This document shows, one piece after another, positions 4,701 to 28,453 of a stretch of 64,000 nucleotides of DNA; positions within the stretch are counted from its first letter, which is position 1, and the number at the start of each line of letters is the position of its first letter. Made by a program: the position numbers and the translations under genes. Source of the DNA: Turbatrix aceti. Its lineage: Eukaryota > Nematoda > Chromadorea > Rhabditida > Panagrolaimidae. The notes below the pieces were generated by a model. That model worked only from the letters and a program-made list of their open reading frames with translations, had not been told where the DNA came from and did no database searches. The stretch covers positions 7,650,718 to 7,714,717 of the forward strand of contig OZ017768.1 in assembly GCA_963969345.1 (NCBI GenBank), in the 5' to 3' direction.

Positions 4701-6038
4701 GTCGTAGAAGTTGATTCTGGTGTTGTTGTTGTCGTAGAACTCGGTAATTGTGTAGTCGTAGTCGTCGTCGAGGTTGTCTCCGGTGTAATTGAGGTTGTCG
4801 AAGTCGGTTCCGGTGTTGTAGTCGTTGTCGAAGTCGGTTCTGTTGTCGTTGTGGTCGTCGACGTCTGTTCAGGTGTCGCTGTGGTCGTCGACGTCTGTTC
4901 AGGTGTCGTTGTGGTCGTAGAAGTCGGTTCTGGTGTCGTCGTTGTCGTCGACGTCGGTTCTGGTGTCGTCGTGGTCGTCGAAGTTGGTTCCAGTGTTGTC
5001 GTTGTGGTTGAAGTTGGTTCAGGTGTGGTCGTCGTCGTCGTCGAAGTCGGTTCCGATGTCGTAGTTGTCGTCGAAGTCGGTTCCGGTGTCGTTGTCGTCG
5101 TCGACGTCGGTTCCGGTGTCGTAGTCGTCGTCGAAGTCGGTTCCGGTGTTGTAGTCGTCGTCGACGTCGGTTCTGGTGTCGTCGTTGTTGTAGAAGTTGG
5201 CTCCGGTGTCGTCGTCGTCGATGTCGAGGTCGGTTCCGGTGTTGTAGTCGTCGTCGACGTCGGTTCTGGTGTTGTCGTTGTTGTAGAAGTTGGCTCCGGT
5301 GTAGTTGTCGTCGATGTCGAGGTCGGTTCAGGTGTTGTTGTCGTAGACGTTGTTTCAGTTGTACTCGTAGTCGATGTACTTGTTTCCGTGGTAGTAACAA
5401 TAGGACAAGTCTGTCCCGCTGCTCGATAATACGAAATCGAAGCAATTGATGACGATCTTTTCACTCGGTTACTCGGTCCTTCGTTATAATCAGATTCCCA
5501 GTTGTAATCCGATTCCGTTTCCGTTTCCGCATCCAACATCGCATCTGTTACGCTGTAGCTCTGACCATCGATCTCAACAATGCTGCGTTTAGCAACAGCT
5601 TTTTCTGTTGTTGGGGATACTGTAGTAGACGACGATGTATTCACAGTTTTCAAATACATTAAGTAACGGTACAGAGTCATCTGTAAGTGTGGTAAAATGT
5701 AAGAGCACATTGTTTTTTAAAAACAAACTTACGAGGTCCTTCAGTTCGCTGATGTAATCTTCGTTTGAATTTGACATTGGATTGAGATTGCACACCGTCA
5801 CGGTCGGAAAAGTTTCGTTGAAAGCGCTTTTGAATTGCATAACGGTGTCCTTTCCATGTCTGGCGTACTGCTTACAGAGCTCCACCGACTGCCAGAAAAA
5901 CCCAGCAAGCAAACCGCAGATAACGAGTGTCCAAAAGATCCTCCAATACCAAAACGGCGATCGAAAAACAAATCCGAGAGTGTGAAGAGACGAAGTTCGG
6001 AGAAAAGATCTCTGTGCGACTCTATCGTACCGAACCAT
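1718..6038 (-). CDS. DEG/ENaC cation channel with giant mucin-like extracellular insert
   Basis: Five exons join in phase: 6038-5733, 5680-2922, 2858-2507, 2418-2020, 1972-1718 (1,356 codons plus stop). Family marks are TM1 with the post-TM1 signature FPTVTVCNLNP, YGNCYTYNY, a Cys-rich region starting GCFRSCFQ, and a last exon with TM2 (LSGALALWTGISCISFIEF) including the G-x-S selectivity triplet. Members are trimeric plasma-membrane sodium or cation channels. The usual length is 500-900 residues; this one is longer because about 700 residues of low-complexity sequence sit in the extracellular domain. These are TSTTTTTPEP-type repeats, then Ser/Thr blocks, a 28-residue GGGGGNGGTTTSL...SYNDSL repeat and a Gly-Asp run. 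The insert begins about 25 residues after RVKR (residues 174-177), a furin consensus. A paralogue lies 165 bp upstream. Ligand and ion preference cannot be inferred. Confidence 0.85.
3170..3265 (-). repeat. GGTGAC/GGTAAC hexamer run encoding Gly-Asp/Gly-Asn
   Basis: On the plus strand this is a run of ACCGTC/ACCATC hexamers. On the coding strand it gives about 15 Gly-Asp or Gly-Asn dipeptides within the channel insert. Such runs are prone to slippage, so length polymorphism is likely. Confidence 0.85.
3275..3705 (-). repeat. about five tandem 84-93 bp units in the channel gene
   Basis: Five consecutive units encode GSYNDSLNSRSTTVG followed by a Gly/Ala-rich linker and GGNGGTTTS. Units differ mainly in the number of glycines. 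The reading frame is kept across all units, showing selection on protein length in whole codons. Confidence 0.85.
4780..5395 (-). repeat. 30-33 bp minisatellite encoding TSTTTTTPEP
   Basis: About twenty tandem units on the minus strand encode TSTTTTTPEP with Ser/Thr length variants and PEQ/LEP/SEP substitutions. This is a mucin-type, potentially densely O-glycosylated sequence. The complementary strand is accidentally open over 500 codons (Val-rich) and should not be annotated as a gene. Confidence 0.9.
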
Positions 6039-6202
6039 GGCTTTGACGAAACAAAAAAGCCAACCAAACTTGTTTTATAGCATGACAATGATGGAGACAT
6101 AATGATGATATTATTTTACGCTTGATTGGGCAATTCAAACGCTGTTGCTAAGCTATTGCCCTATGCCCCCCGAACGAACCTCACTGATGCACCCAAACGA
6201 AC

Positions 6203-9200
6203 CTCGTATGTATAGGGACCGCTGTAGATGTATCCAGGCGACGCTTCGTCAGCGTGACAGTCACCGTAGGGTTTGCCCAAGCGATGAACTTCTTTCTGCA
6301 ATAAAAAATTCATAGATAGACACAGCATGTGAGGGCACTTACAAATGATATACCAATGTTGATATTGCTACCGACAGCGCCTAGGATGTGATCATCATTG
6401 GGAAAGGGCGCGTAGCCGGGATACGAAATCCCTATGGCTACTCCATCCATAGACGTCGATGAAAGATACTGAGAAGTGTTGCTATAGAGCACGAGCTGCA
6501 ATCCATGCCGAAGACCGGGATTAGTCAGCATTTTTGTGCCGTTATAATTAAAAGTGTAGCAAGTGCCGTAGGTCGGATCGATAATTTGCTGAAAGTCTCT
6601 AAACAAAAAAAACATATTTTGGATGAATAACAAAAAACGTACAGATCCAAATCACAAGGCAAAAAGTCGTAAGTGCAATTCATGAGAATTTCTTTCAGGG
6701 TGTACCCATACTGACTGGCATAGGTCACAATAATGGCACCTAATTGATTCAATACTTGAGCATTTAGCGACACAGTGGTCGAAGAAGCATTCAGAAGGTA
6801 CTTATCGATGAAAGCGTTGATTTCAGCAATTGTGTAGTTATCCAAATCATAACCTGTGATATTCAGCAAGATTGCGTTTAGGGTATCGTAGTCGTAATTG
6901 TCAGTTGAGTTCCCATCGCCATTGTTTCCTGAAGAATCGTCTGTACCATTGAGGCTTCCCGATGATCCATCTCCGCTGCCGTTATCGCTACCATCTTGAC
7001 TGTCGCTACCATTACCATCAGCATTGTTGCCATTGTTGCCAGAAGAATCTGAACCGCTACCGTTGTTGCCGGAAGAATCTGAACCGTTTCCGTTGTTGCC
7101 GGAAGAATCCGTGCCGTTGCCGTTGTTGCCGGAAGAATTCGTGCCGTTGCCGTTGTTGCCGGAAGAGTCCGTACCGCTGCCGTTGTTGCCAGAAGAATCT
7201 GAACCGCTACCGTTGTTGCCGGAAGAATCTGAACCGTTGCCGTTGTTGCCGGAAGAATCCGTGCCGTTGCCGTTGTTGCCGGATGAATCCGTACCGTTAC
7301 CGTTGTTACCGAAGAATCCGTGCCGTTGCCGTTGTTGCCGGAAGAATCCGTGCCGCTACCGTTGTTGCCGGAAGAATCCGTACCGTTGCCGTTGCTACCG
7401 GAAGAGCCCGTACCATTACCGTTCGTACCGGAAGAGTCAGCACCACTGCCGTTGTTTCCGGAAAAATCCGTACCGTTGCCGTTATTACCGGAGGAGTCCG
7501 TACCGTTGCCATTGTTGCCGGAAGAATCTGAACCGCTACCGTCGTTGCCGGAAGAATCTGAACCGGTACCGTTGCTACCGGAAGAATCCGTGCCGCTACC
7601 GTTGTTGCCGGAAGAATCCGTATCGTTGCCGTTGCTACCGGAAGAGCCCGTACCGTTGCCGTTATTACCGGAAGAGCCCGTACCGTTGCCATTGTTGCCG
7701 GAAGAATTTGAACCGCTACCGTTGTTGCCGGAAGAATCCGTGCCGTTGCCGTTACTACCGGAAGAATCCGTGCCGCTACCGTTGTTGCCGGAAGAGCCCG
7801 TACCGTTGCCGTTACCGCCCGAAGAATCCGTACCGTCACTGTTCGTACCGGAAGAGGCAGTACCACTGCCGTCGTTGCCGGAAGAGTCTGTTCCATTGCC
7901 GTTGGTGCCCGAAGAATTTGTGCCATTGCCGTTATTTCCAGAAGAATCCGTGCCATTACCGTTACTACCAGAAGAATCCGTGCCGTTACCGGAATTTCCC
8001 GTGCCATCAGTGCCGGTATTACCAGATGAATTTGTGCCATTGCCATTACTACCCGAAGAATCTGTACCATTCGTTCCTGAACTACCAGATGAATTTGTGC
8101 CATTACCATTACTACCAGAAGAATCAGTGCCATTAGTGCCCGAATTACCGGAAGAATCCGAACCATCACCAGACGACCCGCTACTATTTCCACTACTGCC
8201 ATTATTTTGAGTAGGAGCATTTGTTACTTTCTTATAAATAATCGTTTGTCCGTCGCTACGAATAACAATAATGGTGCCGTTTACCTCAATAATTTGCTGA
8301 CCAACATTATTGTCGTCAGAGTCATCATCTGCTGACGATTCAGATGATAAGTCACCAGAAGAAGCTGTTGCACCAGAATCCGTTGAATTCGATGAACTAT
8401 TATTTCCGAACAAAGATGTCGACATTGAACCAAGCGGATTTTCTGTGATTGCAGTTGAGTTACTTCCATCTGCTGATGAGTTAGACACTGTAATTGAAGT
8501 ATCTGTATATAATGTAAGAGTATCATCAGAATTCCCCGACGATGTAGAATCTGAATTAGAATTAGTCACTGCGGTAGCATCGTTAGAATTCGCTGTAGAA
8601 TTATTAGATTCATCAGAGCCGTCTGAATCAGCTCCAGATTCATTTGAATCAGTGGAATCTGCTGAGTCTCCGTCGGAATCGGAAAAATCAGTTGATTCCG
8701 TCCCTCCGCTACCAGATTCGTCGGAATCAGTGGAATCTGTTGAGTCACCGTTAGAATCCGACAAATCAGTTGATTCCGTCCCTCCGCTTCCAGATTCGTC
8801 AGAGTCAGTGGAATCTGTTGAGTTGCCGTTTGAATCCAAAAAATCGGTTGATTTCGTCTCTTCGCTTTCAGATTCGTTCGAATCAGTGGAATCTGTCGAA
8901 TTGCCGTTAGAATCCGAAAAATCTGTTGATTCCGTCGCCCCGCTGTTAGTATCTGTAGATTCAGATAACCCGTCGTCGGATGAATCAGAATTTGTCGAGT
9001 CAGAATCCGTAGAGAAATCATCAGAATTCGTCGAATCTCGTCGATCCACTAACATTGTCCGCTGAATTCGTTGACGATTGACTACTTTCATCAAAATTTG
9101 TCGATTCTGTCGAATTGTCATCTGTTGTTGCTGAAACCGACGTATTCGAAGTTGTTTCTGAAAACGGAGTAATCGAAGACATGAAATCCGTTGAATAAGA

Positions 9201-11711
9201 CGAGTCATCCGTCGACGTCGTTGATTCACCGGAAACTGACGAACTCGAAATTGTTGAGAATGCCGAAATCGTCGACGTCCAATTTGAAGTTTGAGATGTC
9301 GAAGATTCTGTTGTCGTTGAAGTGGAAGTCGGCGGAGTTGCAGAAGTGATATCTGTTGTTGTGGTTGATTCTGCCAAAGTTGTCGTTGGTTCTGTCGTAG
9401 TCGTCGTGGGTTCCATCGTTGTTGTCGTTTGCATGGCAGTTGTGGTAGTCGTAGTACTTGTCGTGGTTGTCGTCGTGGTTGGTTTCAACGTAGTTGTTGT
9501 TGCAGTTGTCGTTGGTTTCGCAGTAGTCGTTGTCGTTGTAGTTGGCGTCGTCGTTTTTACTGTCGTTGTGGGAGTTGTCTCGGTTGTGGTTGTCAGATCA
9601 CACTCCATAGACAGATTCGCTGCGGTAATGTTCGTGAATACAACTAACGGCACTGTTGTCGTCGGTTTCACCGTAGTTGTAGTAGTTGTTGTAGTTGGTT
9701 TCACCGTCGTTGTTGTCGTTGTAGTTGGTTTCACAGTCGTTGTTGTCGTTGTAGTAGGCGTCGTGGTTGTTGTCGTTGTTGTTGTAGAAGGCGTTGTGGT
9801 AGTCGTTGTCGGTTTCAAGGTAGTAGTTGTCGTCGTTGGAGTTGTGGTTGTCGAAGTAATCTCTGTTGTTGTTGTCAGATCACACTCCAAAGACAGATTC
9901 GCAGCGGTAATGTTCGTGAATACAACTAATGGCACTGTTGTCGTCGGTTTCACCGTAGTTGTGGTAGTTGTTGTAGTTGGTTTCACCGTCGTTGTTGTCG
10001 TTGTAGTTGGTTTCACCGTCGTTGTTGTCGTTGTAGTAGGCGTTGTTGTAGTCGTCGTGGTTGTCGTTGTTGTTGTGGTCGGTTTCACCGTTGTTGTAGT
10101 TGGCGTTTCGGTAGTTGTTAATACAGTTGTAGTTGGTTCTAAAGTAGTCGTAGCAGTTGTCGTTGGTTCCTCCGTAGTTGTAGTGGACTCCATGGTAGTT
10201 GTTGACGCAGTTGTAGTAGATTCTACCGTACTCGTTGTAGAAGGCTCCGAGGTGGAAGTTGTCGATTTCATCGAAGTCGTTGAAGAAGGCTCCGAGGTGG
10301 TAGTCGTCGATTCCATCGAAGTCGTTGAAGAAGGCTCTGATGTGGAAGTTGTTGATTCTACCGTACTCGTGGTAGTTTGCTCCGAAGTGGAAGTTGTCGA
10401 TTCTACCGTACTCGTTGTAGTAGGCTCCGAGGTGGTAGTCGTCAATTCCATCGTAGTCGTTGTCGTAACCGGTTGCGTCGTGGAAGATGTTAAATCAGTT
10501 GTACTACTTGTTGTTGGTTCAGAAGTCGTTTCAGTTGTTGACTGCACCGATGTCGTAGATAAAAGCGTTGTTGTTGCAGTATCCCTTGACGACGTTGTGC
10601 CTTCCGCAGTTGTTGTTCGCGAAGATGTCGATGACAATTCCGTCGTGCTCGGCGTTGACGTCAATTCGATAGTCGTTGACGTACTTGACACAATATTGGT
10701 TGTCTCCGGCGTTGTTGATGCTGCTTCATTGTTATCAGTTGTTGCCGAAGTTGATGGATCAGTTGTCGTTTGTGATGTTGTAATTGGATTAGTAGTAGTT
10801 ATAGTCAAATCCGTAGTTGTTGTTGCTGTATCCGCAGCTGTTGTCGACGCTGCCAAAGACGATTCAGTGCTATCAGTTGTTGTAGTTAATTTATCAGCGT
10901 CAGTCGTTGTAAAAGAGTCCATACTAATCGTCGTCGTAGATAACTCCGGAGTTGTTGACAAAGATTTTTGACTCATTTCCGTTGTTGCTGTTAATGATTC
11001 TGACACTGTTGTAGATTCAATGACGGATGTCGTTGTCCAAGAATCCACAGTTGTAGTCCACATCGTTGATACCGCCAATGTTGTCGATCTATCACTTATT
11101 GCAGATGTTGACGCACTCGTCGCCGCTGTTTCCGACACAGTTGTTTCCGGTGTAATCGCAGAAGTCTGTACAACAGGCGAACTTGTAGGTGCAGAACTTA
11201 CCGTGCCACTTTCAGTCGAATCGTACGCTTCAGCATCTCTTTTGTATCTTTTCTGATCTTCGAGAAACCATCCGCCACTATCAATGGAAACAGTTGCAGT
11301 ATCAGAATCGTTACGACTACTGATTGATTTTAAATACAATATGTATCGATACGAACTCATGAGTTCTGATAGTTCCATAATATCTGCTTCGTAGCTACTT
11401 GAAATAGGATTAACGTTGCAAACTGTGACGGCCGGAAAAGCCGTGCCATAAGCGCTTTTTAGTTGAATGTTCGTAACACGGCCGTACTAAAACGGTATGT
11501 AAATAAGCCAGTGTAAACAACAACAACATCCTACCTTGAGATACTGTTTGACAAGTACAGAACAATGCCAGCCGAATCCCGAAAGACATCCTATCAACAA
11601 CAGAGACCAAAATAATCGAAATCTAAGATTTTGACTCTTTGCGATATCAGCGACCAGGGGAATAAAAGATTCCTTAGCTGCAATACGAAAAGCTGGCAGC
11701 GAAAAAGGCAT
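6203..11711 (-). CDS. DEG/ENaC-like channel paralogue lacking its Cys-rich/TM2 end
   Basis: Exons 11711-11535, 11486-6643, 6598-6343 and 6295-6203 join in phase. TM1 (FRLFWSLLLIGCLSGFGW) is followed by FPAVTVCNVNP, a furin-type RYKR, then about 1,400 low-complexity residues: Thr-rich mucin, a Ser-Asp block, and about 38 SSGNNGNGTD decapeptides. The fold then resumes with TYGTCYTFNYNG and ends at GPYTYE. The last codon is followed by GT (GTTCGT), in the same phase as the matching donor of the downstream paralogue. No Cys-rich or TM2 exon follows in the 165 bp before the next gene. The long exon changes frame near 9,050 and back near 7,308, so as written it is interrupted. It is either a pseudogene, a gene with sequence errors in repeats, or an alternative 5' unit using the paralogue's terminal exons. 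I prefer the ATG at 11,711; frames reported further upstream need a TTG start. Confidence 0.6.
7030..8190 (-). repeat. 30-bp minisatellite encoding SSGNNGNGTD
   Basis: About 38 tandem copies of a 30-bp unit (plus strand roughly CCGTTGTTGCCGGAAGAATC) encode Ser-Ser-Gly-Asn-Asn-Gly-Asn-Gly-Thr-Asp with N/S/D exchanges. One unit near 7,305-7,315 has lost a base (TTACCGAAGAATCC against TTGCCGGAAGAATCC elsewhere), which shifts the frame. Confidence 0.9.
8560..9040 (-). repeat. Ser/Asp-rich repeat block in the channel paralogue
   Basis: Units of about 60-70 bp encode STDFSDSNGDSTDSTDSDES with Gly-Gly-Thr-Glu linkers. The block is acidic and extracellular by position, so calcium binding is conceivable but not shown. 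Confidence 0.8.
9250..11250 (-). repeat. Thr-rich mucin-like region with a 289-bp higher-order duplication
   Basis: The minus strand encodes a long Thr/Ser/Val/Lys/Pro mucin-like stretch (TTTTVKPTTTT, STTSTSEPS and similar). Inside it a non-repetitive island, PLVVFTNITAANLSxECDL, occurs twice (about 9,592-9,660 and 9,880-9,948) with its flanks, so a unit of about 289 bp has been duplicated. The plus strand frame of 549 codons here is an artefact of codon composition. Confidence 0.85.
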
Positions 11712-13049: not shown

Positions 13050-14910
13050 GTAGTAATGAAAGGACGTCTGGAAAAAGATATGGCAGACTACACGCTGCCA
13101 CTTTTGTTCCAACGTGGTCATCTTGGAAAAAGTCATTGTATTATAAAGTGCACGATAGCCGTAAAATGCAAGGTTGCAAGGCAACCGAAGCTAAGTATTC
13201 TAAAGTGGCTCTTGCAACAATCAAAACATAAATATAAAACACAACCAGACAACGGCAGCGCCCCCCCCCCCCCCTCAAAAAAATAAAGAAGCCATGACAT
13301 CGGCGTATAAAAGGTTGTTTTCAAGTCTGGTTTGGCTGAGAGCTGACTCCAACTTTCGGTAGCACATATGTATACCTGTTCGATTATGCAACGGCATGAA
13401 AAACGATGCTGCTTTTTGGGCGAGGAATAAAAAATAATGTTTTATCCATGCGACCGTGTTTGACTCGTGTTTTTTTTTCTGTTTTGGTGGGTTATTATGT
13501 GTTGACACGAAAACGATGAGGTAAAACATTTTGTTTACAACATGTTGTAAAATTACTTCTGCCCTTGATCACACTTACTATGTCAGCGTAGATAAAAACA
13601 ACGCCTACGTACGCCAAAAACATAAAACATAAACGTAGTATGTACCCTTAGTTTTGGATTTTAATAAATTCTGATAAATATTATACATAAATTCTCCAGT
13701 GTTCAAGAAACACAGATAAATAAATAGATACCGTATTTAAAAATATATAAAAAAATGATTGATGTCATACAAAACGGTCGTCATGACAGTCAATGTTGGC
13801 ACAACCCATCTTTGGGATAAAACACAAACAATAACATAAATACTCCCACATGACAGCCAAGGTTGTAACTATGACAGAGCCCAGACCATCTTTCAAGTAC
13901 TTTGGTGAAGGGGAAAAACATACAAAAACAGGCAAAGTTATGGGCGTATTTTGCAATCATTTTTCCAACTTTCAAACAAACTTACATTTTATGTGAACGT
14001 GAAGTATCGGTGTTGCCGATGTTGTACAACGCGTTGTATCCGAAAAATGCCGTTTTAGAAAATATCAAAAAAAGTATCAAGTACAAACAATAAAAATAAA
14101 AATAAAAATGTGGATCAATTAAAATAAACCAAAATTTTAAACAGAACAAATCGACTCAAAATTGGAGCGGATTTTATTTCAATGTTTTTTCGCCATTGGC
14201 AATACGGCACGATCTGTGCTCATTGGAACATTATTTTGAATATTTATTTGGTCGCCCTGTGTTCACGGAAATGACATCTTTTTGGCTATAAATTACGTGA
14301 GAATACAGTATGAAGACACGCATTTGAAGATTACACAGAATTTTTAAAACACAGAAATCAAAATTTAGTTTTTTTATGTTTACATCATCGTGCTTACCAA
14401 AAATGCTAAAAAATACATAAACGGCGTCCAAGAAATTAAAAAAAAAAGAAATATGGTTTAAAAACAAAAAAAATGAACGGAAATGAAACAACCTATCAAC
14501 GAATAAACGAAAGAACGGATAAACGAATGTCTACATAGGATAAGAAAATGATGAGTGACCTGTCTCTTTCGATTTTTAATAAAAAAAAAAACAATAAGCC
14601 AACTATAACGCCAAAAAACAATGAAAAGAATAACGATTGGACTGCGACATTGCACAAACGAGTAAGTAACACTACTATTGCAAGTAAGTAACATGCATGA
14701 AAAATCGAGTAAAATCGTAAAAAACACACAAATACAAACGGCAAACGTAATCAGAAAAAAAAGCAGCAAAAAACCGAGTTGGATGTACTGTACTGTACAT
14801 AGACATTGTAATTGTAGCTATGATTAAAAAATGCAGTAATTTTGCAACACCCTGCCGAACCTGAACTGATCATGCACACCGCTCTATCAACCATGATCGA
14901 CTATTATGTA
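13050..14910. other. AT-rich intergenic region, no gene recognised
   Basis: No open frame here has splice context, domain or codon bias that I can support. It holds a poly-C run at about 13,260-13,274 and several A/T homopolymers. It ends at the outer edge of the large palindrome. Confidence 0.6.
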
Positions 14911-16161
14911 TATGCGTTTCAGGTAATGCCAACGCGTTCCAAAATTTAGGGATATTCAGCCACACGCTTTCGCATGGGCGGAATTCAATGTTTACCTCAA
15001 ATCTGGGTAATTAAACCGACGTTCGATCCGTAGATACTGCTTTTGTTAACCTGCTTACGCAAAAAAATTGAATGACCAAGCGATATCATACACATTGCAG
15101 TTTTTAAAGAGACGCAGAGAAAAAGAACCTATAAAGGGAGGGGAGACGTTTTGGGAAGTTAATCCGCAGCAGCACTGCAGTCAGCGGCGAGCGCAGGGTG
15201 GTAGCTTTAATAGAATAAAGCTCTTTGCGCAGTTGATTTTCGAGCGACAAGGAAGTATACTACCACGCGGACTAAATCGGCGTTTTGGCAGCGAAAAGTA
15301 AGGGGAAGGTCTGGCTGCCCAATGTCAGTCGCTACTGCAGTAAAAAAGAGTTTATTGCTCAGCAAGAATGGTCTACTAACAAGTTGCAATAGTCGTCTAG
15401 TCCGTCTATTATTGTCCTTCTGCACACTTTTTTACCATTTTGAGACCCCGGTTCAATTCTATGCACGTTCAAAATTTTTTTATGTTTTTTCCGTTAAACA
15501 AAAAATTAAGAATTTCTCTGTAGAATCTCCGGAGATTCTCCCAGGTAAACAAATTCTTCCGGGAGATTTAAAGATGATGGGAAACAAAAAATAGAAAATC
15601 CGTGTTTTTATAAATTGCTGTAAACAAAAATGCGTTAGCAATGTGCGGAAACGGTACAGAACTGTCCGTTTTGATTTTTATGTCGTTAATTAATTTTTTA
15701 AAAAATAAAAACATCATTGGACGCTTTTTGGCAAGCTGGGTCTCCCGGGAGATTTTCACCCAGGATTCAATCTCCCGGGAGATTTCGCCACCCTGGAAAA
15801 ATGTTGGCATAAAGGCGGATATTTTTGAACAGTTATCAAAAAAAATTTGTTGTGGCTAAACCGATAGATCAATAAATTGTCTAAGCCGCTTAAAAATGCA
15901 CTCGAATGTTATGCACTGCCTCGGGCAGACAAATGCCACAGACTATGCATGTGCGTTTAAAAAATTATTTTGATCCATCGGCGTTTGGCAGTAAGGGGAA
16001 GGGGAATCTCTGGCTGCCCAATGTCAGTCGTTGCTGCAGTAAAAACAGTCTAAAATAATCTCTAAAATAATTGTATGTAAATGTAATTCCACAAAATTTG
16101 TGCTTGCATTTCATTTATTCTCATCACATTATTTAAACAGTTTGTTAGTCAAGAATCGGAA

Positions 16162-16299
16162 TCAGTCAAGTATGTCAACTACGTCGTTAACAACTTTCAG
16201 AGTCGCGCCTCCGGCATTAATAACATCACTGAAAATATTGCCGGCGACAGTCGTTGTGAAGAAAGCGACGAGAAAGAGGATGGTGTACAGGAAGTTCAT
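16162..16299 (-). CDS. 45-residue secreted peptide, copy A
   Basis: A single-exon frame of 45 codons. Residues 1-20 are a clear signal peptide (MNFLYTILFLVAFFTTTVAG); cleavage after VAG would release a 25-residue mature peptide starting NIFSDVINAGGATLKVV and ending DVVDILD. The mature part is acidic and could form an amphipathic helix. It has no cysteine or dibasic site. The gene is the mirror image of copy B across the palindrome centre, and its 5' flank carries the same TATA-like box. Function is unknown: host-defence, signalling or membrane-active roles are all possible. Confidence 0.65.
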   Translation of the reverse strand: MNFLYTILFLVAFFTTTVAGNIFSDVINAGGATLKVVNDVVDILD

Positions 16300-16683
16300 T
16301 GTAGACAGGATGTATCCAAAAGATATGGAATTGTGGAAACTGAGCTAGTATTTATGTTCGCAGAAGTTCAACAATTTTGCTGTCAGATCCGCAAAGTGCT
16401 TTTTCCCAGGTACAAAACTGATGGGATTTTTACAAATTATACAGAAATCAGAGTGCTTTGATGAGAAACTCTCAAGTTTACAGTAGGGTTTTTCCTGCAA
16501 AAAATTATTTCTCATATTCTGCAGGTTTTGCAGAAGCTTGTTTTGTTTTGATGTACTGTAAACTTGAGAGTTTCTCATTAAAGCACTCTGATTTCTGTGA
16601 TATTTGTAAAAATCCAAACAGTGTTGTACATGGGAAAAAGCACTTTGCGGATGTGACAGCAAAATTGTTGAACTTCTGTGGGC

Positions 16684-16690
16684 ATAAATA
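16684..16690 (+). promoter_or_regulatory. TATA-like box of peptide copy B
   Basis: ATAAATA lies 50-56 bp before the ATG. The same box at the same spacing precedes copies C and D, and the whole 5' flank is conserved among copies. The conservation may simply reflect recent duplication. Confidence 0.4.
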
Positions 16691-16739
16691 TGAGCTCGGT
16701 TTTCACAATTCCATATCTTTTGGATACATCCTGTCTACA

Positions 16740-16877
16740 ATGAACTTCCTGTACACCATCCTCCTTCTCGTCGCTTTCTTCACAACGACTGTCGCCGGTA
16801 ATATTTTCAGTGATGTTATTAATGCCGGAGGCGCGGGTCTGAAAGTTGCTGAAGACATCGCTGACATATTTGACTGA
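16740..16877 (+). CDS. 45-residue secreted peptide, copy B
   Basis: This copy begins with signal peptide MNFLYTILLLVAFFTTTVAG, then NIFSDVINAGGAGLKVAEDI and ADIFD. It differs from copy A mainly in the mature C-terminal half (AEDIADIF against VNDVVDIL), while the signal peptide has one change. An ATAAATA box lies upstream and an AATAAA signal at 16,921, so it looks like a complete intronless gene of about 240 bp. The frame can be extended upstream to 16,458, but homology among copies and the signal peptide favour the start at 16,740. Confidence 0.7.
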   Translation: MNFLYTILLLVAFFTTTVAGNIFSDVINAGGAGLKVAEDIADIFD

Positions 16878-18299
16878 TTCCGACTCTTGACTGAAAAAAC
16901 TGTTTAAATAATGTAATGAGAATAAATGAAATGCAAGCACAAATTTTGTGGAATTACATTTACATGTGCGACTGCAAACAATTATTTTAGAGATTATTTT
17001 AGACTGTTTTTACTGCAACAACGACTGACATTGGGCAGCCAGAGATTCCCCTTCCCCTTACTGCCAAACGCCGATGGATCAAAATAATTTTTTAAACGCA
17101 CATGCATAGTCTGTGGCATTTGTCTGCCCGAGGCAGTGCATAACATTCGAGTGCATTTTTAAGCGGCTTAGACAATTTATTGATCTATCGGTTTAGCCAC
17201 AACAAATTTTTTTTGATAACTGTTCAAAAATATCCGCCTTTATACCAACATTTTTCCAGGGTGGCGAAATCTCCCAGGAGATTGCATCCCGGGAGAAAAT
17301 CTTCGGAGATTTTACGGAGAAATTCTCAATTTTTTGTTTAACGGAGAAAACATGAAAAAATTTTGAACGTGCATAGAATTGAACCGGGGTCTCAAAATGG
17401 TAAAAAAAAGTGAGCAGAAGGACAATAATAGACGGACTAGACTATTGCAACTTGTTAGTAGACCATTCTTGCTGAGCAATAAACTCTTTTTTACTGCAGT
17501 AGCGACTGACATTGGGCAGCCAGACCTTCCCCTTACTTTTCGCTGCCAAAACGCCGATTTAGTCCGCGTGGTAGTATACTTCCTTGTCGCTCGAAAATCA
17601 ACTGCGCAAAGAGCTTTATTCTATTAAAGCTACCACCCTGTATTAGCCGCTGACTGCAGTGCTGCTGCGGATTAACTTCCCAAAACGTCTCCCCTCCCTT
17701 TTACACCGTGCGTGCATAGGTTCTTTTTCTCTGCGTCTCTTTAAAAACTGCAATGTGTATGATATCGCTTGGTCATTCAATCTTTTTGCGTAAGCAGGTG
17801 AACAAAAGCAGTATCCACGGATCGAACGTCGGTTTAATTACCCAGATTTGAGGTAAACATTGAATTCCGCCCTAGCGAAGGCTTGTGGCTGAAGACTACT
17901 AAATTTTGGAAAGCATTTGCATAAGCGGATGCACAAAAAAAATCTATGGATTCTCCTTCTCTTAGTGATGATGGTGAAGGACTAGTGTTGTATGCATAAT
18001 CAGGTCCGGTACGTTGTCGTCAGTCATTCTGCCGACTTTTTTACCATTTTGAGTTCCGGTTCAGTTCCGAACATGTTCAAAATGTTTTTTCGACATCAAA
18101 ATGTTGTAAAACACTTTTTTATTACTTTTTTGTTCTCAATCGTTATTTTTGTGCGCGCTCAAGCTTACTATAACGTTGCGAGGGGTCACAAAGTGGTGTA
18201 TCACAAAATATTGTCATTTTGAGTGATTACATGTATTTTTTCATTTGCATGGAAACGCCATGTCACCATGATTTTTATAGTAAGTGTTTCAAATGTAGC

Positions 18300-18575
18300 C
18301 TACCTGAACACCTGCAGGAAGCCAACAAAACGATCCAAACACCCATGTAGAAGTCGTACAACCAATACAAAACGGTCTGTATGTCGTCCAGTGTGTATAA
18401 AACCGGAGCGACTACAGAAGCCCGCCCAGCTACCGTAACGAGGACTTAAAAAATGCAGCCGACAATGAGCACGCCATAAAAAGAGAATAACTTCGCGGGG
18501 CACGTCTTGGAATACACATTTCTTTTTACTGAGCAGATGACACGAATCGCCATGGTGGCATTGCACACCTGGAGG
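18300..18575 (-). pseudogene. possible multi-pass membrane protein exon relic
   Basis: After a CTCCAG acceptor-like site the minus strand reads MAIRVICSVKRN, later LFSFYGVLIVGCIF, then one stop (after a T-run), then VLVTVAGRASVVAPVLYTLD and VLYWLYDFYMGVWIVLL. The frame ends near a GGTAGGC donor-like site. The hydrophobic segments separated by short polar stretches recall a serpentine chemoreceptor exon, but I see no family-defining motif. The in-frame stop makes it a relic at best. Confidence 0.2.
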
Positions 18576-18937
18576 ACGTAGAATGTGTACAAACAAAAGG
18601 AGAAAATATACATCAAGCAATTTTCGCTTGTTGCAAAATTTTCTATTAACTATTACTAAAAAAAATTTGTTCCCGCACAAGTTTTTTTTACGTTCAAAAC
18701 TAAAATTTACGGCGTCTGTGAAGGACCTCTATCGGTTCATATTCTGCAGACAGCTCAGTCATTCATTACGATAAATATTTTCAATTGTTTCCGATCTGAA
18801 AACCATTTTTCATTTCACAATTTGTACCTGGGAAAAAGCACTTTGCGGATGTGACAGCAAAATTGTTGAACTTCGGGGGGCATAAATACGAGCTCGGTTT
18901 TCACAATCCCATATCTTTTGGATACATGCTGTCTACA

Positions 18938-19075
18938 ATGAACTTCCTGTACACCATCCTCCTTCTCGTCGCTTTCTTCACAACGACTGTCGCCGGCAAT
19001 ATTTTCAGCGATGTTATTAATGCCGGAGGCGCGACTCTGAAAGTTGTTAACGACGTAGTTGACATACTTGACTGA
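18938..19075 (+). CDS. 45-residue secreted peptide, copy C
   Basis: Signal peptide as in copy B, mature part NIFSDVINAGGATLKVVNDV and VDILD, identical in the mature region to copy A. ATAAATA at 18,882-18,888 and AATAAA at 19,118-19,123 frame a short intronless gene. The four intact frames with almost unchanged signal peptides suggest recent duplication, purifying selection, or both. Confidence 0.7.
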   Translation: MNFLYTILLLVAFFTTTVAGNIFSDVINAGGATLKVVNDVVDILD

Positions 19076-19892
19076 TTCCGATTCTTGACTGACAAACTGT
19101 TTAAATAATGTGATGAGAATAAATGAAATGCAAGCACAAATTTTGTGGATCGACATTTGTATATAAACATTGGTTGTAGAATAGTATAACCAGTATCATC
19201 GGATCAGGGTTGGGGTAAACGTTCGCATTCATTCGTATTTGTTTGCCAACAAATTTGATTTTTTATGTTTGTTTGCGAAAATATTTCGAATTATCAAACA
19301 TATAAAATGGACACAAGATGTGGCAACTTTGGCCAGTGATAAAGTTTAAAACGGACCGGTGATTTTTAAATCAAAAAAAAAGAGAGAGAGATCCGTTTAT
19401 CGCCGAGAAGCGTGGTGCCGCTATTTTATCTTGTTGCCCATGTTTTTCTCCATAAGAAATTCCCGATGAAAAAAACAGCCCAGTGTCGCCCATGAAGGCG
19501 CGCTTTATCGATGCTGCAGCCAAAAATTTTTTAAAACGCTCAAATCAAAAGAGAGTAAACCGTTTGAGTAGAGGTTGTGTCATCGCCTGTTCCATATTCC
19601 TAAATCGGCACGCATACTCTCTCTTAAATTACCGATCCGTTTTTGACTTTGTCATAGACCAAAATTGCCACAAGTTGTGTCCATTTTATGTTTGATAATT
19701 CGAAGTATTTTCGCAAACAAAAAAAACCGGATTTGTTGACAAAGAAATACGAATGAATACGAAGGTTTACCCGAACCCTGATCCGAAGATACAGGTTACA
19801 CTTTTATATAACTGTACATCCACAAAATTTGTGCTTGCATTTTATTTATTCTCATCACATTATTTAAACAGTTTGTCAGTCAAGAATCGGAA

Positions 19893-20030
19893 TCAGTTAA
19901 ATATGTCAGCGATGTCTTCAGCAACTTTCAGACCCGCGCCTCCGGCACCAATAACATCTTTGAAAATATTGCCGGCGACAGTCGTTGTGAAGAAAGCGAC
20001 GAGAAGGAGGATGGTGTACAGGAAGTTCAT
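19893..20030 (-). CDS. 45-residue secreted peptide, copy D
   Basis: Signal peptide identical to copies B and C, mature part NIFKDVIGAGGAGLKVAEDI and ADIFN. This copy is the least acidic (Lys for Ser at mature position 4, Asn for the final Asp). A TATA-like box lies at 20,080-20,086 on the minus strand. Its 5' flank is a mirror image of the flank of broken copy E. Confidence 0.7.
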   Translation of the reverse strand: MNFLYTILLLVAFFTTTVAGNIFKDVIGAGGAGLKVAEDIADIFN

Positions 20031-20254
20031 TGTAGACAGGATGTATCCAAAAGATATGGAATTGTGAAAACCGAGCTCATATTTATGCCCACAGAAGTTC
20101 AACAATTTTGCTGTCACATCCGCAAAGTGCTTTTTCTCAGGTACAAGTGATGGGATTTTTACAAGTTTCACAGAAATCAGAGTGCTTTGATGAGAAACTC
20201 TCAAGTTTACAATAGGGTTTTTCCTGCAAACGATCATTTTCTCGTATTCTGCAG

Positions 20255-20545
20255 GTTTTGCAGAAGATTGTATTGTTTTGCTGTACTGTAAACTTGAGAG
20301 TTTCTCACTCCGATTTCTGTGAAACTTGTAAAAATCCCATCAGTGTTGTACCTGGGAAAAAGCACTTTGCGGATCTGACAGCAAAATTGTTGAACTTCTG
20401 CGAGCATAAATACGAGCTCAGTTTTCACAATTCCAAGTTGCTGAAGACATCGCTGACATATTTAACTGATTCCGATTCTTGACTGACAAACTGTTTAAAT
20501 AATGTGATGAGAATAAATAAAATGCAAGCACAAATTTTGTGGATC
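20255..20545 (+). pseudogene. secreted peptide copy E, internally deleted
   Basis: The 5' flank of the peptide gene (with its TATA-like box near 20,407) is present. It jumps after TTTTCACAATTCC directly to the last codons of the mature peptide (KVAEDIADIFN, stop at about 20,468-20,470). The signal peptide and the first part of the mature peptide are lost. The 3' flank with AATAAA follows. The copy cannot encode the secreted peptide. Confidence 0.75.
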
Positions 20546-20559
20546 CAGACGTTACCCTT

Positions 20560-21830
20560 ACTTTTTGTCGCCAAAACGACGATTTTTAAGGGTGGTAGTC
20601 ATTAATTCTTTTCGCCCAAAAATCAACTGCGCAAAGAGTACCAACATTTTTCCAGAGTGGCTAAATCTCCCGGGAGATTGAATCCCGGGAGAAAATCTCC
20701 GGTGATTCGTCCGAAATCCCCGGAGATTTTCCTAAAATCTCCCGGAAGACCCAGCTTACCAAAAAGCGTCCAATAATGTTTTTCTTCTTTAAAAAATTAA
20801 TTAACGACATAGAAATCAAAACAGACAGTTCTGTTCTGTTTCGGCACATTACACACGCATTTTTGTTTACAGCAATTTATAAAAACACAGATTTTTTATT
20901 TTTTGTTTCCCATCATCTTTAAATCTCCCGGGAGATTTTTATTTACCCGGGAGAATCTCCTGTGATTCTCCGGAGAAATTCTCAATTTTTTGTTTAACGG
21001 AGAGAACATAAAAAAATTTTGAACGTGTATAGAATTGAACCGGGGTCTCAAAATGGTAAAAAAGTGTGCAGAAGGACAATAATAGACGGACTAGACTATT
21101 GCAACTTGTTAGTATACCATTCTCGCTGAGCAATGAACTATTTTTTACTGCAGTAGCGACTGACATTGGGCAGCCAGACCTTCCCCTTACTTTTTGCTGC
21201 CAAAACGCCACTTTAGTACGCGTGGTAGTAATTTTCTAGGTGCGCTCGAAATCAACTGCGCAAAGAGCTTTATTCTATTATTGCTACCACCTACCACCCT
21301 ATACTCGCCGCTGACTGCAGTGCTGCGGATTAACTTCCCAAAACGTCTCCCCTCCCTTTTACACCGTGCGTGCATAGGTTCTTTTTCTCTGCGTCTCTTC
21401 GAATAGCAATGCAAATGATGGCGCTTGGCGGTACAAGCTTTTTGCGTAAGCAGATGGACAAGAGCAGTGTTTGCAAACCCTTTTTCATAGTTTTTTGCGT
21501 AAGCAGACTGACAAAAGCTGTCTCCGCGCATCTTTCTTCCGCCCTTGCGAAAGCTTGTCGATGGATCCAAATAATTTTTGAAACGCACGTGCATAAGCTG
21601 TGGCATGAATAAAAGTCGGTAATCCAAAAATTTTGTTTGCATATATGCATTTGTCTGCCCGAGGCAGTAAATAACAGCAAAAAAATATACCAGCGTTTGA
21701 AAGACCGTATTCGGGTGCATTTTTAAGTGGCTTAGACAATTTTTTGAATTATCGGTTTAGCCACAACAAATTTTTTATGATAACTGTTCAAAAATATCCG
21801 CTTTTATGCCAACATTTTTCCAGGGTGGCT
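20560..21830 (-). repeat. third copy of the palindrome-arm sequence, not inverted-paired
   Basis: This stretch repeats the distal part of the 14.9-17.9 kb palindrome arm (landmarks CTGACATTGGGCAGCCAGAC near 21,157 and CTGCGTCTCTT near 21,388) in the orientation of the right arm. It retains the segment deleted from that right arm. It lies immediately beyond peptide copy E, so peptide genes and this repeat have been mobilised or duplicated together at least twice. Confidence 0.7.
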
Positions 21831-22135
21831 GCATTGCATCCCGGAAAAATGTTGTTTTGCATCCCGGGAGAAAATCTCCGGTGATTCATCCGAAATCCCC
21901 GGAGATTCTCCCAAAATCTCCCGGGAGACCCAGCTCGCCAAAAAAACGTCCAATAGTGTTTTTCCATTTTAAAAAATTAATTAACGACATAAAAATCAAA
22001 ACGGACAGTTTTGTTCTGTTTAGCCACAACACGTTGTTATTCATAATAGGTTATTCAACCAGTGCTGTCGAGTGCCGAAGACCCAACCCGGACCCGCTAA
22101 TTTCGGGTACCCGACCTGACCCAAACCCGAAATTT
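21770..22135. repeat. partial repeat copy with CTCCCGGGAG hairpins, then CCCGAA-rich tract
   Basis: A partial copy of the segment around 15,570-15,840 (CCAACATTTTTCCAGGGTGG) holds several CTCCCGGGAG-type palindromes. It is followed at about 22,078-22,135 by a tract of ACCCGAC/CCCGAAAT words. A similar tract of opposite composition occurs at about 28,480-28,577, so this is a dispersed repeat. Confidence 0.6.
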
Positions 22136-22594
22136 TTTGAAAAAAACCTTTATTTTTTGTGCTTAAAAAAAATAAATTTTCTATACATTCTAAATTTTCG
22201 CATTTATAAGCATTTGAAATCTGCATACTGCTGTTTTGAGAATAAAAATGTAAAATATGGAGAATCCGTTAAAAACAAAAATAAAAGAAACGCAAAACTA
22301 AAAATTCGATTTTTGCGGCACGGTGTCGCAAATTGATTAAAACTTTAGTTTGGGATTTTTTGATCCGTGTTCATTTAATTTTTTTGATGTCCTACTTGTT
22401 TATTTAGAACAATGATTGATTGTGAGTACGTATTTATTAGAAACGCGCACATTTTGAACGCTCGAGTTTTATAAAACCTTGGCAAAGTGTCCCCAAACCG
22501 CCAAGGTTTTTTCCCCGGCTTTCTTCCTTTTTTTGTGGTTTTATTCCCATTTTTAGCCGGATCCGCTTATTTTGGCCTATTTCACTTCTTTTTT

Positions 22595-22596: not shown

Positions 22597-22599
22597 GCA

Positions 22600-23918
22600 A
22601 TGTCGTCATCATCGTCAGAATACACGTCATCCGACGAGGAAGAGCAGGTCTCGACGACGCCCGGATCAACCGCGGTTGTCCGCCAGGAATGGACGGATCG
22701 CGCACGAACTCTTCTTACCATGTCTCGTGGCACCGTTGCCCGCATTCGCTACCTCGCCAAGGACATCCGTAGCATGCTGCCTCAGTGCCACATTGAGCAC
22801 AAGTTTGACAAGAAAAACCGGCTTCCTATGCTCAACGAAATGGCCGAACTTTCGCGTTGCAAGCGTGTCATCTACTTTGAGGTTCGTTCGGGACGCGATG
22901 GCTACATGTACCTGTCGGACGACGTTGTCAACGGTCCATCGGTCAAGTTTCTCCTCCACAACGTGCATACCGCATCTGAGCTGAACTTTACGGGAAACTG
23001 CCTCAAGGGATCTCGGCCGATTCTCGTTTTTGACGCTCAATTCGAGAAAAAGCCTCATCTGCAGCTTCTCAAACGCATTTTTGTTGATGTGAGTTTTTTT
23101 TTATGACTGTTTGCCCTTGAAAATGGACAATTTTGAATGTTTGTGCTTTTTTTTGGGATTTGAGTTGAATTTTACAATTTTTAGGTATTTCACGTCCCGC
23201 TCAACCACCCTCGCTCCAAGCCCTTCTTTGACCATGTCATGAACTTTGGCATCACTCCGGACGGTCGCATTTGGATCCGTTACTATCAGCTCTTTGACGA
23301 CAAGTTTGAACTCCAAGAAATCGGTTTGTGCTTGATTTATAATTACAAAAATTGTGTCAGTGAACATAGAGGAAATTTTATTGCCAAAAGGAAATTTTTT
23401 TTTCGTAAAATGCATTTTCCGGATGCGTGATCTGGCAAAATTATGAGTTATGCGTTTTTATCACTTTTTGACGATTTTTGACACCTTGTATATATTTATG
23501 TTTTTATCGAATTTTTTTATCCTACGTTTTTTATATTTTTTTCAAGCATTTTTTTTTTATCAAAATTTACGTCATTTTAGGCCCCCGATTCGTGCTGGAG
23601 CCGGTCTGCATCTTCAGCGGATCCTTCGACGGCCCCCTGCTCTACAACAACACCGAGTACATCAATCCCCGAGCCAAGCGTCGCATCGCTCGTCTGGAAG
23701 CCGCAGAAAAGAGCCAAAAACGCATCATTGCGAAGACGAAGCGTGTGGCCAAGGATGCCGTCGTCAAGTCCGTCAAACTGCCCGATCCAGTCGGCGAAAT
23801 CTTCGACGAGGTCATCGATGAGCCTGCTGCGAAGAAAATCGCCCGCGAAATCGACTCCAAGAAGAAGTCCAAGTCGAAGAAGACAAAAACGAAGGCAACG
23901 ATCAAAGCTACCGCTTGA
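22600..23918 (+). CDS. BRX1: ribosome biogenesis protein BRX1 (Brix domain)
   Basis: Three exons, 22600-23088, 23185-23323 and 23581-23918, join in phase to 321 codons plus stop. The Brix domain is plain: RNRPRGT-type start is diverged (RARTLLTMSRGT), then LLPHxxxExKFD-like MLPQCHIEHKFDKK, ELxxxRxCxxxxxFE-like ELSRCKRVIYFE, and FTGNCLKGSRPILVFD. Later motifs are NHPRSKPFFDHVMNFGI, RIWIRYYQL and GPRFVLEPVCIFSGSF. The C-terminal tail is Lys-rich. BRX1 acts in the nucleolus in assembly of the 60S subunit, with EBP2/RPF-type partners. The length is close to other animal BRX1 proteins. The first 30 residues are Ser/Glu-rich. The gene is convergent with the Rad60-like gene, their stop codons 145 bp apart. 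Confidence 0.95.
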
Positions 23919-26417: not shown

Positions 26418-28453
26418 AGTGCCACTGCATGCGCCTTCCCCTTATTTTTTATCAATAGAGCGCGCGCGTGCATTTTCAGAAAGAGTCATGTTCAAAAAAA
26501 CGCCCTGAAGCCCGTAATAGAGTTTTCAGCTTACGGTCACTTCGGTAGGCTTGGGCATGTCCCAAAGATTGTTTTAAGCCACTCGCGGCTCCTGTAGGAT
26601 TTTTTTGGGCAATGCTGGAGGCATTGAAAGATCATGAAACTTCGAAGTGCCGTAACTCACCAAAACCCTTGCCGATTTTAAAAAACTCTCTATCACGCTT
26701 TTCATTATGCCGAAAAGAATCAGTATGCAAAACACGTGGCACCAAAATATGCGCGTATTCGATTTACATCAAAAATTAGATTACCACTGGTTCACCAGCT
26801 TAGAAATGCGCACGCGGTGAAATATTAGTGAAAAAAAGTTTATTATGATCATCGTAATTAAGAGCCACTCTGCGAGCAGATTTATTTCCGACTACACAGC
26901 CATTTTACACTTTCCGATGTTTTGTGCCAAAGTTGTAGGCACCTATAGGGCGGTTCCAAATTTCCATACCAAAATTTTTTTAGATGCCGGATTCTGGAGT
27001 TTCGGCTTCTGCAATTTTTGACGTCAAATTTTCAAACTGTTTCAAAAATTCTGATTTTTGGTATACAGGGGTATCTTGGCACGAGAAATCGACTGGTGTA
27101 TTTAGTTTTCTCAAAAAACATCTGACTTTTTTGAAAAAATGTGATTTCTGGTTTTTCCGCCCGTTTTTGTCCGTTGCTTGGCTCCAGCATCCGTATATTA
27201 CCCGGCGAAGTGGTTTTCGCAGGCTAATCTTGTAGCTTGGTTTCTGCTCTATCGGGAAAAGTGAAAGAAAAAATATATTAGCTCCATCAATTTTCGTTTC
27301 GAATTTTTTTATGACGCCAACTCGATCTAAAATGGTTGAAAAAGCGCACAGATCTTCCCCGCTTTGTGTGCGCGCAACGTGCGAGCGCGCGCCGTGCTGC
27401 AGCGCATGCGTTTCGCACGCGTAATCTCTCTTTTTTCGCTTGTTTTTGATCGAGTTGGCGCTATAAAAAAATTCAAAACGAAAATTGATGGAGCTAATAT
27501 ATTTTTTCTTTCACTTTTCCCGATAGAGCAGAAACCAAGCTACAAGATTAGCCTGCGAAAACCACTTCGCCGGGTAATATACGGATGCTGGAGCCAAGCA
27601 ACGGACAAAAACGGGCGGAAAAACCAGAAATCACATTTTTTCAAAAAAGTCAGATGTTTTTTGAGAAAACTAAATACACCAGTCGATTTCTCGTGCCAAG
27701 ATACCCCTGTATACCAAAAATCAGAATTTTTGAAACAGTTTGAAAATTTGACGTCAAAAATTGCAGAAGCCGAAACTCCAGAATCCGGCATCTAAAAAAA
27801 TTTTGGTATGGAAATTTGGAACCTCCCTATAGGTGCCTACAACTTTGGCACAAAACATCGGAAAGTGTAAAATGCCTGTGTAGCGCCCTCCACCTTATAA
27901 ATAAATCGGCTCGCAGAGTACCTCTTAATAAAAACTAAAAAAAGTCAAATAAAAACAAAGAAATCAGAAGGTGAAAAAGTGGTGCCCCTCCAGATTTGGA
28001 CTGATCGCCGAGTTTATTCGTTGGCGGAACCCCAAGAGAGTCCGCTATTGCAAAGCGCGTGCGCATTTCTAAGCTGGTGAACCAGTGGTAATCTAATTTT
28101 TGATGTAAATCGTATACGCGCATATGTTGGTGCCACCTGTTTTGCATACTGATTCTTTTCGGCATAATGAAAAGCGTGATAGAAAGTTTTTCAAAATCGG
28201 CAAGGGTTTTGATGAGTTACGGCACTTCGAAGTTTCATGATCTTTCAATGCCTCCAGCACTGCACAGAAAAATCCTACAGAAGCCGCGAGGGGCTTAAAA
28301 CAATCTTTGGGACAAGCCCAAACATATCCAAGTGATCGTAAGCAAAAAACTCTATTACGGGCTGCAGGATCTTTTTTTGAACAGAACTCCTTGCACACTC
28401 GCGCGCGCGTCATTTTCTCTTGTTTGATAGAAAGGCGCATGCAGTGCAGTGCC
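26418..28453. repeat. outer palindrome, arms 26,418-26,818 and 28,055-28,453
   Basis: The left arm contains TCATTATGCCGAAAAGAATC and TTACCACTGGTTCACCAGCT; both recur inverted in the right arm near 28,150 and 28,085. Each arm carries an alternating purine-pyrimidine GCGCGCGCG tract (near 26,460 and 28,400). The two arms have diverged by scattered substitutions and small indels. The interior is occupied by a different element flanked by TTAA. Confidence 0.8.
26858..27928. mobile_element. TTAA-flanked foldback element, copy 1
   Basis: The element is almost wholly an inverted repeat: 26,984-27,235 and 27,540-27,791 are reverse complements and give the same 83-residue frame on opposite strands. 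Its ends read TTAA GAGCCACTCTGCGAGC on the left and GCTCGCAGAGTACCTC TTAA on the right. TTAA at both ends is the target duplication made by piggyBac-type transposases. No transposase is present, so it would be a non-autonomous, foldback (MITE-like) member. The centre is GC-rich with GCGCGCGC and CTGCAG words. A related element lies at 55,231. Confidence 0.75.

Follow-up and report, generated by a model that had tools for sequence, protein, structure and literature searches.

We found that a 64,000-nt window from the nematode Turbatrix aceti (the whole stretch of DNA analysed, C4:7650718-7714717) holds four intact genes and one deleted copy of a family of tiny precursors. Their promoter, signal peptide and 3' untranslated region (3'UTR) are shared and are here called the chassis, while the mature part, here called the payload, differs from class to class. 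With a probability of about 0.6, we regard this as a lineage-restricted, rapidly diversifying nematode multigene family of very small secreted effector peptides, combining a conserved chassis with a varying payload and most likely serving defence. The genome comprises 59.9 Mb in 28 contigs, and C4 is an 11.6-Mb chromosome.

Extent, classes and peptides of the family

A sequence-only reading of the window had proposed a family of 45-residue secreted peptides multiplied within palindromes, and the family proved to exceed chance and to extend well beyond the window. A 30-nt pattern of the signal start, searched with up to three mismatches in the whole genome, gave 62 matches, all within 2.03 Mb of C4 (7.00-9.03 Mb), compared with none for the same pattern read backwards; the family is about 15 times as large as its four start-bearing window copies. 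A pattern of the 5' untranslated region (5'UTR) had 56 genome matches, in the same C4 region only. Signal, payload and stop codon are encoded by 56 of the 62 copies, a count inflated by exact tandem copies at 7.92-7.94, 8.03-8.04 and 8.13-8.14 Mb. These copies form seven classes (25, 9, 10, 8, 1, 1 and 2 copies in classes 1 to 7, respectively) with 23 distinct proteins, and the other six copies comprise a single fused frame (8) and a broken frame (9) present five times.

The gene unit has a TATA-like box about 57 nt before the ATG, a signal of about 19-20 residues, a payload of 15-39 residues and an AATAAA 26-46 nt past the stop. The TATA-like box is present in 52 of the 56 copies (at -57 in 45) and AATAAA in 55. 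In all classes the payload directly follows the signal, an acidic propiece being absent, and no payload of classes 1-7 contains a cysteine. The payloads include acidic amphipathic helices, one hydrophobic peptide of 15 residues, Pro/Gly-rich peptides and a peptide with a basic tail, among others. A conserved GTGATAAGAATAAA-like stretch lies right before the poly(A) signal in many 3'UTRs of classes 1-7.

Further copies are damaged, being split or lacking a start. One example is a class-2 gene at C4:8146.9-8147.9 kb (L042, about 930-1885), interrupted by an insertion whose short ends are inverted (TGCATGCGCC and GGCGCATGCA) and which has CCTGTTCAC on either side, resembling a 9-bp target duplication; frames resembling those at this insertion also occur in the window near 28.24-28.5 kb. 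At C4:8127-8138 kb (L089-L093), tandem units of 2569 bp combine an intact class-1 gene without the usual TATA and a second frame whose match to the signal ends after nine codons.

Modelled as helices, class-1 payloads are amphipathic, their whole-helix moment being reached by 0.2-0.9% of shuffles; class-2 payloads are less so (1.7-5.7%), and those of classes 3-7 are not amphipathic. A single-sequence AlphaFold model of the precursor of gene A, one of the window copies, gave one helix over residues 2-44 (predicted local distance difference test 90.7, predicted template-modelling score 0.44), but as the model includes the signal, it says little about the mature form. Pfam gave no family above cut-off for seven class representatives, and protein-database searches with classes 1 and 4 found no relative, although these searches require shared exact 5-residue words and are therefore weak for such short peptides. 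A search with a 12-sequence alignment, subject to the same word requirement, returned 51 candidates, all with E above 1. Within these limits, the results agree with the earlier statement that no described family is recognisable, and literature searches on nematode peptides with conserved signals and hypervariable mature parts yielded no description recognised as this family. A relationship to Drosophila DIM (Pfam PF08194) was rejected, as the class-4 match covers the signal only and lies under the cut-off (E 0.83).

Divergence, coding constraint and reassortment

Between classes (means of 70 pairs of 13 representatives, with the promoter taken as -130 to -1 and the 3'UTR as 63 nt past the stop), identity amounted to 88.0% of aligned bases in the promoter, 90.9% in the signal, 67.5% in the payload and 85.8% in the 3'UTR, payload divergence exceeding that of the DNA on either side. 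Within class 1, mean distances were 1.4% for the signal, 6.2% for the 3'UTR, 8.6% for the promoter and 9.7% for the payload, and outside the chassis they rose to 24% (beyond -130) and 41% (beyond the 3'UTR). The earlier description of a nearly constant signal and a variable mature part thus holds for class 1 and between classes, but not for class 3, which shows the reverse. Relative to shuffles, some weak similarity exists among the payloads of classes 1, 2, 3, 5 and 6 (z 4.4-6.4 for classes 1 and 2, 6.9-7.4 for classes 1 and 6). Those of classes 4 and 7 reach z of at most 2.7 with every other class, and the Pro/Gly-rich and basic-tailed payloads have no clear relation to the other classes. 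Class-1 payloads resemble combinations of two halves.

Codon changes were counted in 20 class-1 copies, excluding that at 7184236, which has a rewritten tail, and four of 46 residues. The class-1 signal showed five synonymous (S) changes and one nonsynonymous (N) change (p 0.007), an omega-like ratio of 0.07, and differed in this ratio from the payload (Fisher p 0.016). Payload counts were 5 N : 0 S in class 2 and 10 N : 1 S in class 4. No internal frameshifting indel was found in 2973 coding nt of the 22 unique class-1 open reading frames, a count biased towards intact frames because class-1 membership was assigned by reading frame; four occurred in 2860 nt of promoter and two in 1386 nt of 3'UTR. 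From these flanks (6 in 4246 nt), 4.2 coding frameshifts would be expected (P 0.015, or 0.03 by distinct events). All 50 genome matches of the class-1 protein lack an internal stop. By these counts, the class-1 coding frame is shown to be under constraint.

Evidence of reassortment comes from promoter comparisons (-200 to -1): the class-7 gene at 8097348 shares 99.5% identity with a class-3 gene and 86.7% with the other class-7 gene, and the class-1 gene at 8142814 shares 97% with a class-2 gene and 87.6% with its best same-class match. In cross-class pairs, identity drops at the end of the signal and recovers in the 3'UTR; the 99.5% promoter identity across unlike payloads extends to -210, and another cross-class pair remains about 90-100% identical to -420. 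On a tree of 52 chassis sequences (41 different ones, giving 41 rows; four class-1 copies with a rearranged promoter were excluded), approximately unbiased (AU) tests rejected the monophyly of classes 1, 2 and 7 (p 0.0012, 0.0049 and 0.022, respectively). The tree requires 11 class changes, the minimum being 6 and the shuffled mean 19.4, hence the classes are still clustered. Since class 1, if ancestral, could be paraphyletic, a class-1 copy nested inside class 2 with support of 100/98 is the firmer evidence. This discordance shows, as far as sequence comparison can, that chassis and payload reassort between loci by recombination or gene conversion.

Divergent neighbours less than 1200 bp apart number 24, with ATG-to-ATG distances of 384-442 bp in 18, 558 and 606 bp in one each, and 801 bp in four. 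The 20 pairs below 620 bp join like classes in 11 cases and unlike classes in nine; as four of the nine are copies of one 4/2 arrangement, there are six unlike combinations.

Proposed explanation, its rivals and known parallels

In the explanation that we favour, each gene would be a single-exon unit of TATA promoter, short 5'UTR, signal, payload, stop and AATAAA, of which promoter, signal and 3'UTR form the conserved chassis, the payload differing by class. Since the genes lie mostly head to head around a shared stretch, commonly of 384-442 bp, one control region probably drives two payloads, which would often be unlike. In this view, the units are multiplied by palindromic and tandem duplication, and chassis and payload are reassorted by recombination or gene conversion between loci, the coding frame being kept. 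The peptides would be secreted, most likely as a jointly regulated mixture of effectors acting externally or in the gut, with defence against microbes as a first guess. A bolder version, which we advance tentatively and which may well not hold, is a payload-swapping system. In that version, a conserved promoter-signal-3'UTR chassis in palindromic head-to-head pairs would have been repeatedly recombined with non-homologous mature peptides, yielding, for a free-living nematode, a co-regulated, fast-renewed effector cocktail, an invertebrate counterpart of the frog-skin arsenal built by inter-locus reassortment.

Several results weigh against these proposals. The class-1 payload counts (20 N : 7 S, p 0.65, omega-like ratio 0.84) are neutral-like, and codon counts therefore give no proof of positive selection; the fast-evolving secreted-peptide family put forward earlier is supported, with this reservation. 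In class 3 the expected pattern is reversed, in that the payload hardly varies (1 S : 0 N) but the signal does (1 S : 6 N), and across all classes the constraint on signal codons 2-13 is only weak (8 N : 6 S, p 0.22). The AU test does not reject class 3 as one clade (p 0.083), and several copies are exact tandem duplicates, the number of which depends on the assembly. Net charge is -1 to -4 in classes 1-6 (-2 to -4 in class 1), only class 7 being positive (+1). Classical antimicrobial peptides are cationic, so the negative charge argues against a peptide of this type; class 1 is amphipathic but negative and thus lacks their cationic amphipathic character. Finally, promoters within a pair are mostly no closer to each other than to promoters at other loci, and in most of the 20 pairs a promoter of the same class at another locus is at least as close. 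This speaks against frequent arm-to-arm conversion and makes inter-locus exchange the better reading.

The acidic rather than cationic payloads would also suit secreted peptides for signalling or reproduction (pheromone, seminal or egg-coat type) that diversify through conflict or mate recognition. The payloads of classes 2 and 3 end in Gly and those of class 7 in GGKR, and such ends could serve amidation. We nevertheless consider this reading somewhat unlikely, as chemically unlike payloads on one promoter, including Pro/Gly-rich ones, would fit an effector cocktail better. An ordinary old gene family, with a chassis that seems young only through strong constraint on promoter and 3'UTR and with no reassortment, appears less probable still. 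The weak similarity among classes 1, 2, 3, 5 and 6 (z 3-7 for some pairs) is in its favour, and the fast class-1 divergence beyond -130 and past the 3'UTR suggests that the chassis itself may be constrained. Its strict form, however, is refuted by the reassorted pairs, in which promoters are more alike across unlike payloads than between like ones, and the AU tests point the same way.

The sequence-only reading had itself named the outcome that would overturn it, namely frames that are passive passengers of the repeat. In this rival, the frames would be carried by duplicating inverted repeats and left untranslated, or the palindromes would matter as hairpin RNA. Every window copy does lie in a palindrome with arms 91-98% complementary, and the repeats resembling spliced leader 1 (SL1) in the same palindromes have spread without peptide genes. 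The constrained class-1 signal, the lack of coding frameshifts where the flanks predict several, the uninterrupted class-1 matches and the concentration of between-class divergence in the payload, above that of the flanks, make passengers or hairpins very improbable.

For the secreted effector family, published work offers several parallels, none of which we claim as homologous or related. Frog-skin antimicrobial precursors (temporin, brevinin, dermaseptin) form a duplicated family with a conserved signal and a hypervariable C-terminal mature peptide (PMC7106915). The present family shares the conserved signal and diverging mature region, but it has no acidic propiece, mostly acidic payloads, a single short exon and head-to-head pairs in palindromes. 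The myticalins of Mytilus, described in PMC12294457 as lineage-specific, cysteine-free, hyperdiverse and derived from one ancestral precursor, resemble it in these respects; here, in contrast, the peptides are acidic, apparently encoded by one exon and without extension. Inverted-repeat gene pairs of Caenorhabditis (PMC1803023) consist of divergent paralogs separated by an inverted repeat (446 bp in F44E5.4/F44E5.5) and duplicate as units, and one pair has identical 5' parts and diverged C-terminal parts. The 24 pairs found here share this arrangement (with window arms of 91% over 345 nt). The Caenorhabditis pairs are few and ordinary and show arm-to-arm homogeneity, whereas here there are tens of peptide genes, unlike payloads within a pair and arms that are not especially alike. 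The secreted HYP effectors of cyst nematodes have conserved parts around a variable domain (PMC11228951) and vary motif number and order at single loci, whereas here many loci carry different whole payloads. Compared by composition with nematode Gly-rich small secreted peptides (GRSPs; PMC10506718), only class 4 is Gly/Pro-rich. Unlike the cysteine-stabilised antimicrobial peptides of nematodes (CS-alpha-beta, nemapore), the payloads are cysteine-free and gave no Pfam match above cut-off in the seven representatives.

Beyond the groups already known, the immune effectors of nematodes remain mostly uncharted, and PMC10506718 acknowledges that rapidly evolved ones are overlooked by sequence-similarity pipelines. 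Fixed regulatory and export parts joined to changing payloads would provide a direct route to unlike, co-regulated peptides in one genome, and the family may serve as a natural case for studying how new secreted peptides arise through palindromes and exchange between loci. Dozens of tiny genes that would share one on-switch and one export tag, each releasing a different peptide, are reminiscent of frog-skin defence peptides.

Window copies, palindromes and spliced-leader repeats

In the window, the translations of the four intact 45-residue frames, A to D, match those given earlier, and the shared boxes and spacing were confirmed in all four, with the TATA-like box 57 nt before the ATG and AATAAA 42-43 nt past the stop. 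The mature part, given as 25 residues, comes to 25-26 depending on the predicted cleavage site. Copy E is indeed a deleted copy, which retains the promoter, TATA (20405), AATAAA (20512) and 3' end; its deletion took out the ATG and signal together with the first half of the payload. As described, A/B and D/E are divergent and C/D convergent within inverted-repeat arms (335 nt, 97% complementary; 262 nt, 98%; 345 nt, 91%; 345 nt, 92%), and the second palindromic group, including E, spans 18821-20545. The A/B intergenic stretch, with 441 bp from ATG to ATG, probably acts as a shared bidirectional promoter; no head-to-head partner was found adjoining gene C.

Features of the peptide-gene region (window positions)
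Feature	Position	Strand	Remarks
Peptide gene A, class 1	16162..16299	-	signal MNFLYTILFLVAFFTTTVA, payload GNIFSDVINAGGATLKVVNDVVDILD
Peptide gene B, class 1	16740..16877	+	payload GNIFSDVINAGGAGLKVAEDIADIFD; head-to-head with A
Peptide gene C, class 1	18938..19075	+	promoter diverged beyond about -130
Peptide gene D, class 1	19893..20030	-	payload GNIFKDVIGAGGAGLKVAEDIADIFN
Copy E	about 20306..20545	+	head-to-head with D; deleted copy
TATA-like box of A	16349..16356	-	CATAAATA, -57
TATA-like box of B	16683..16690	+	CATAAATA, -57
TATA-like box of C	18881..18888	+	CATAAATA, -57
TATA-like box of D	20080..20087	-	CATAAATA, -57
AATAAA of A	16114..16119	-	
AATAAA of B	16921..16926	+	
AATAAA of C	19118..19123	+	
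AATAAA of D	19845..19850	-	
A/B intergenic stretch	16300..16739	.	inverted repeat itself
3-kb palindrome	14919..17929	.	SL1-like repeat - A - promoter - B - SL1-like repeat
Second palindrome	18821..20146	.	C/D convergent; further inverted repeats in spacer 19173-19812
SL1-like RNA gene, left arm	14917..15017	-	Rfam SL2 37.6 bits, below gathering score
SL1-like RNA gene, right arm	17831..17934	+	Rfam SL1 36.3 bits, below gathering score

The earlier reading had overlooked the SL1-like RNA genes in the outer palindrome arms. In an Rfam scan of 14000-22500, these scored below the gathering scores of SL2 (41) and SL1 (75), but tandem arrays on C4 (0.73-0.75 Mb) and C6 (about 3.38 Mb), whose exon matches exactly what we take to be canonical SL1, also score only 38-43 bits, so the low score is no sign of decay. 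The SL1-like exon GGTTTAATTACCCAGATTTGAG followed by GTAAAC occurs twice in the window, compared with 0.01 expected; this exon identifies the outer arms of the palindrome as repeats of SL1-type spliced-leader RNA. The window leader is a variant with GA for AG. SL1-like exon sites with up to one mismatch number 132 genome-wide, and among the 100 of these matches that were listed the window variant occurs six times, always on C4 and in five cases within 3 kb of a peptide gene. An SL1-like gene lies within 3 kb of 7 of the 12 peptide clusters, compared with an average of 0.47 for single points placed at random, a comparison that favours the clusters because they span more than a point. Some of the palindromes thus carried SL1-like genes along with them.

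We rejected the idea of a transposon whose terminal repeats would hold the peptide genes: the outer repeat (window 14915-15600) occurs on C1, C2, C4 and C5 and holds SL1-like RNA genes, whereas the signal-start pattern is confined to its C4 region. MicroRNA-like Rfam matches at the palindrome centre were likewise dismissed as too weak (30.3 bits, cut-off 83).

Elsewhere in the window, two other inverted repeats (26980-27795 and 55230-56274) carry near-identical frames on opposite strands. Sodium-channel exons (ASC, Pfam PF00858) at 2011-11486 on the minus strand, apparently of several channel genes, are interleaved with long Thr/Ser-rich and Gly-rich low-complexity frames. A Brix-domain exon (22597-23106, E 1.4e-20) and a DUF5679 exon (921-1400, E 6.3e-17) lie on the plus strand.

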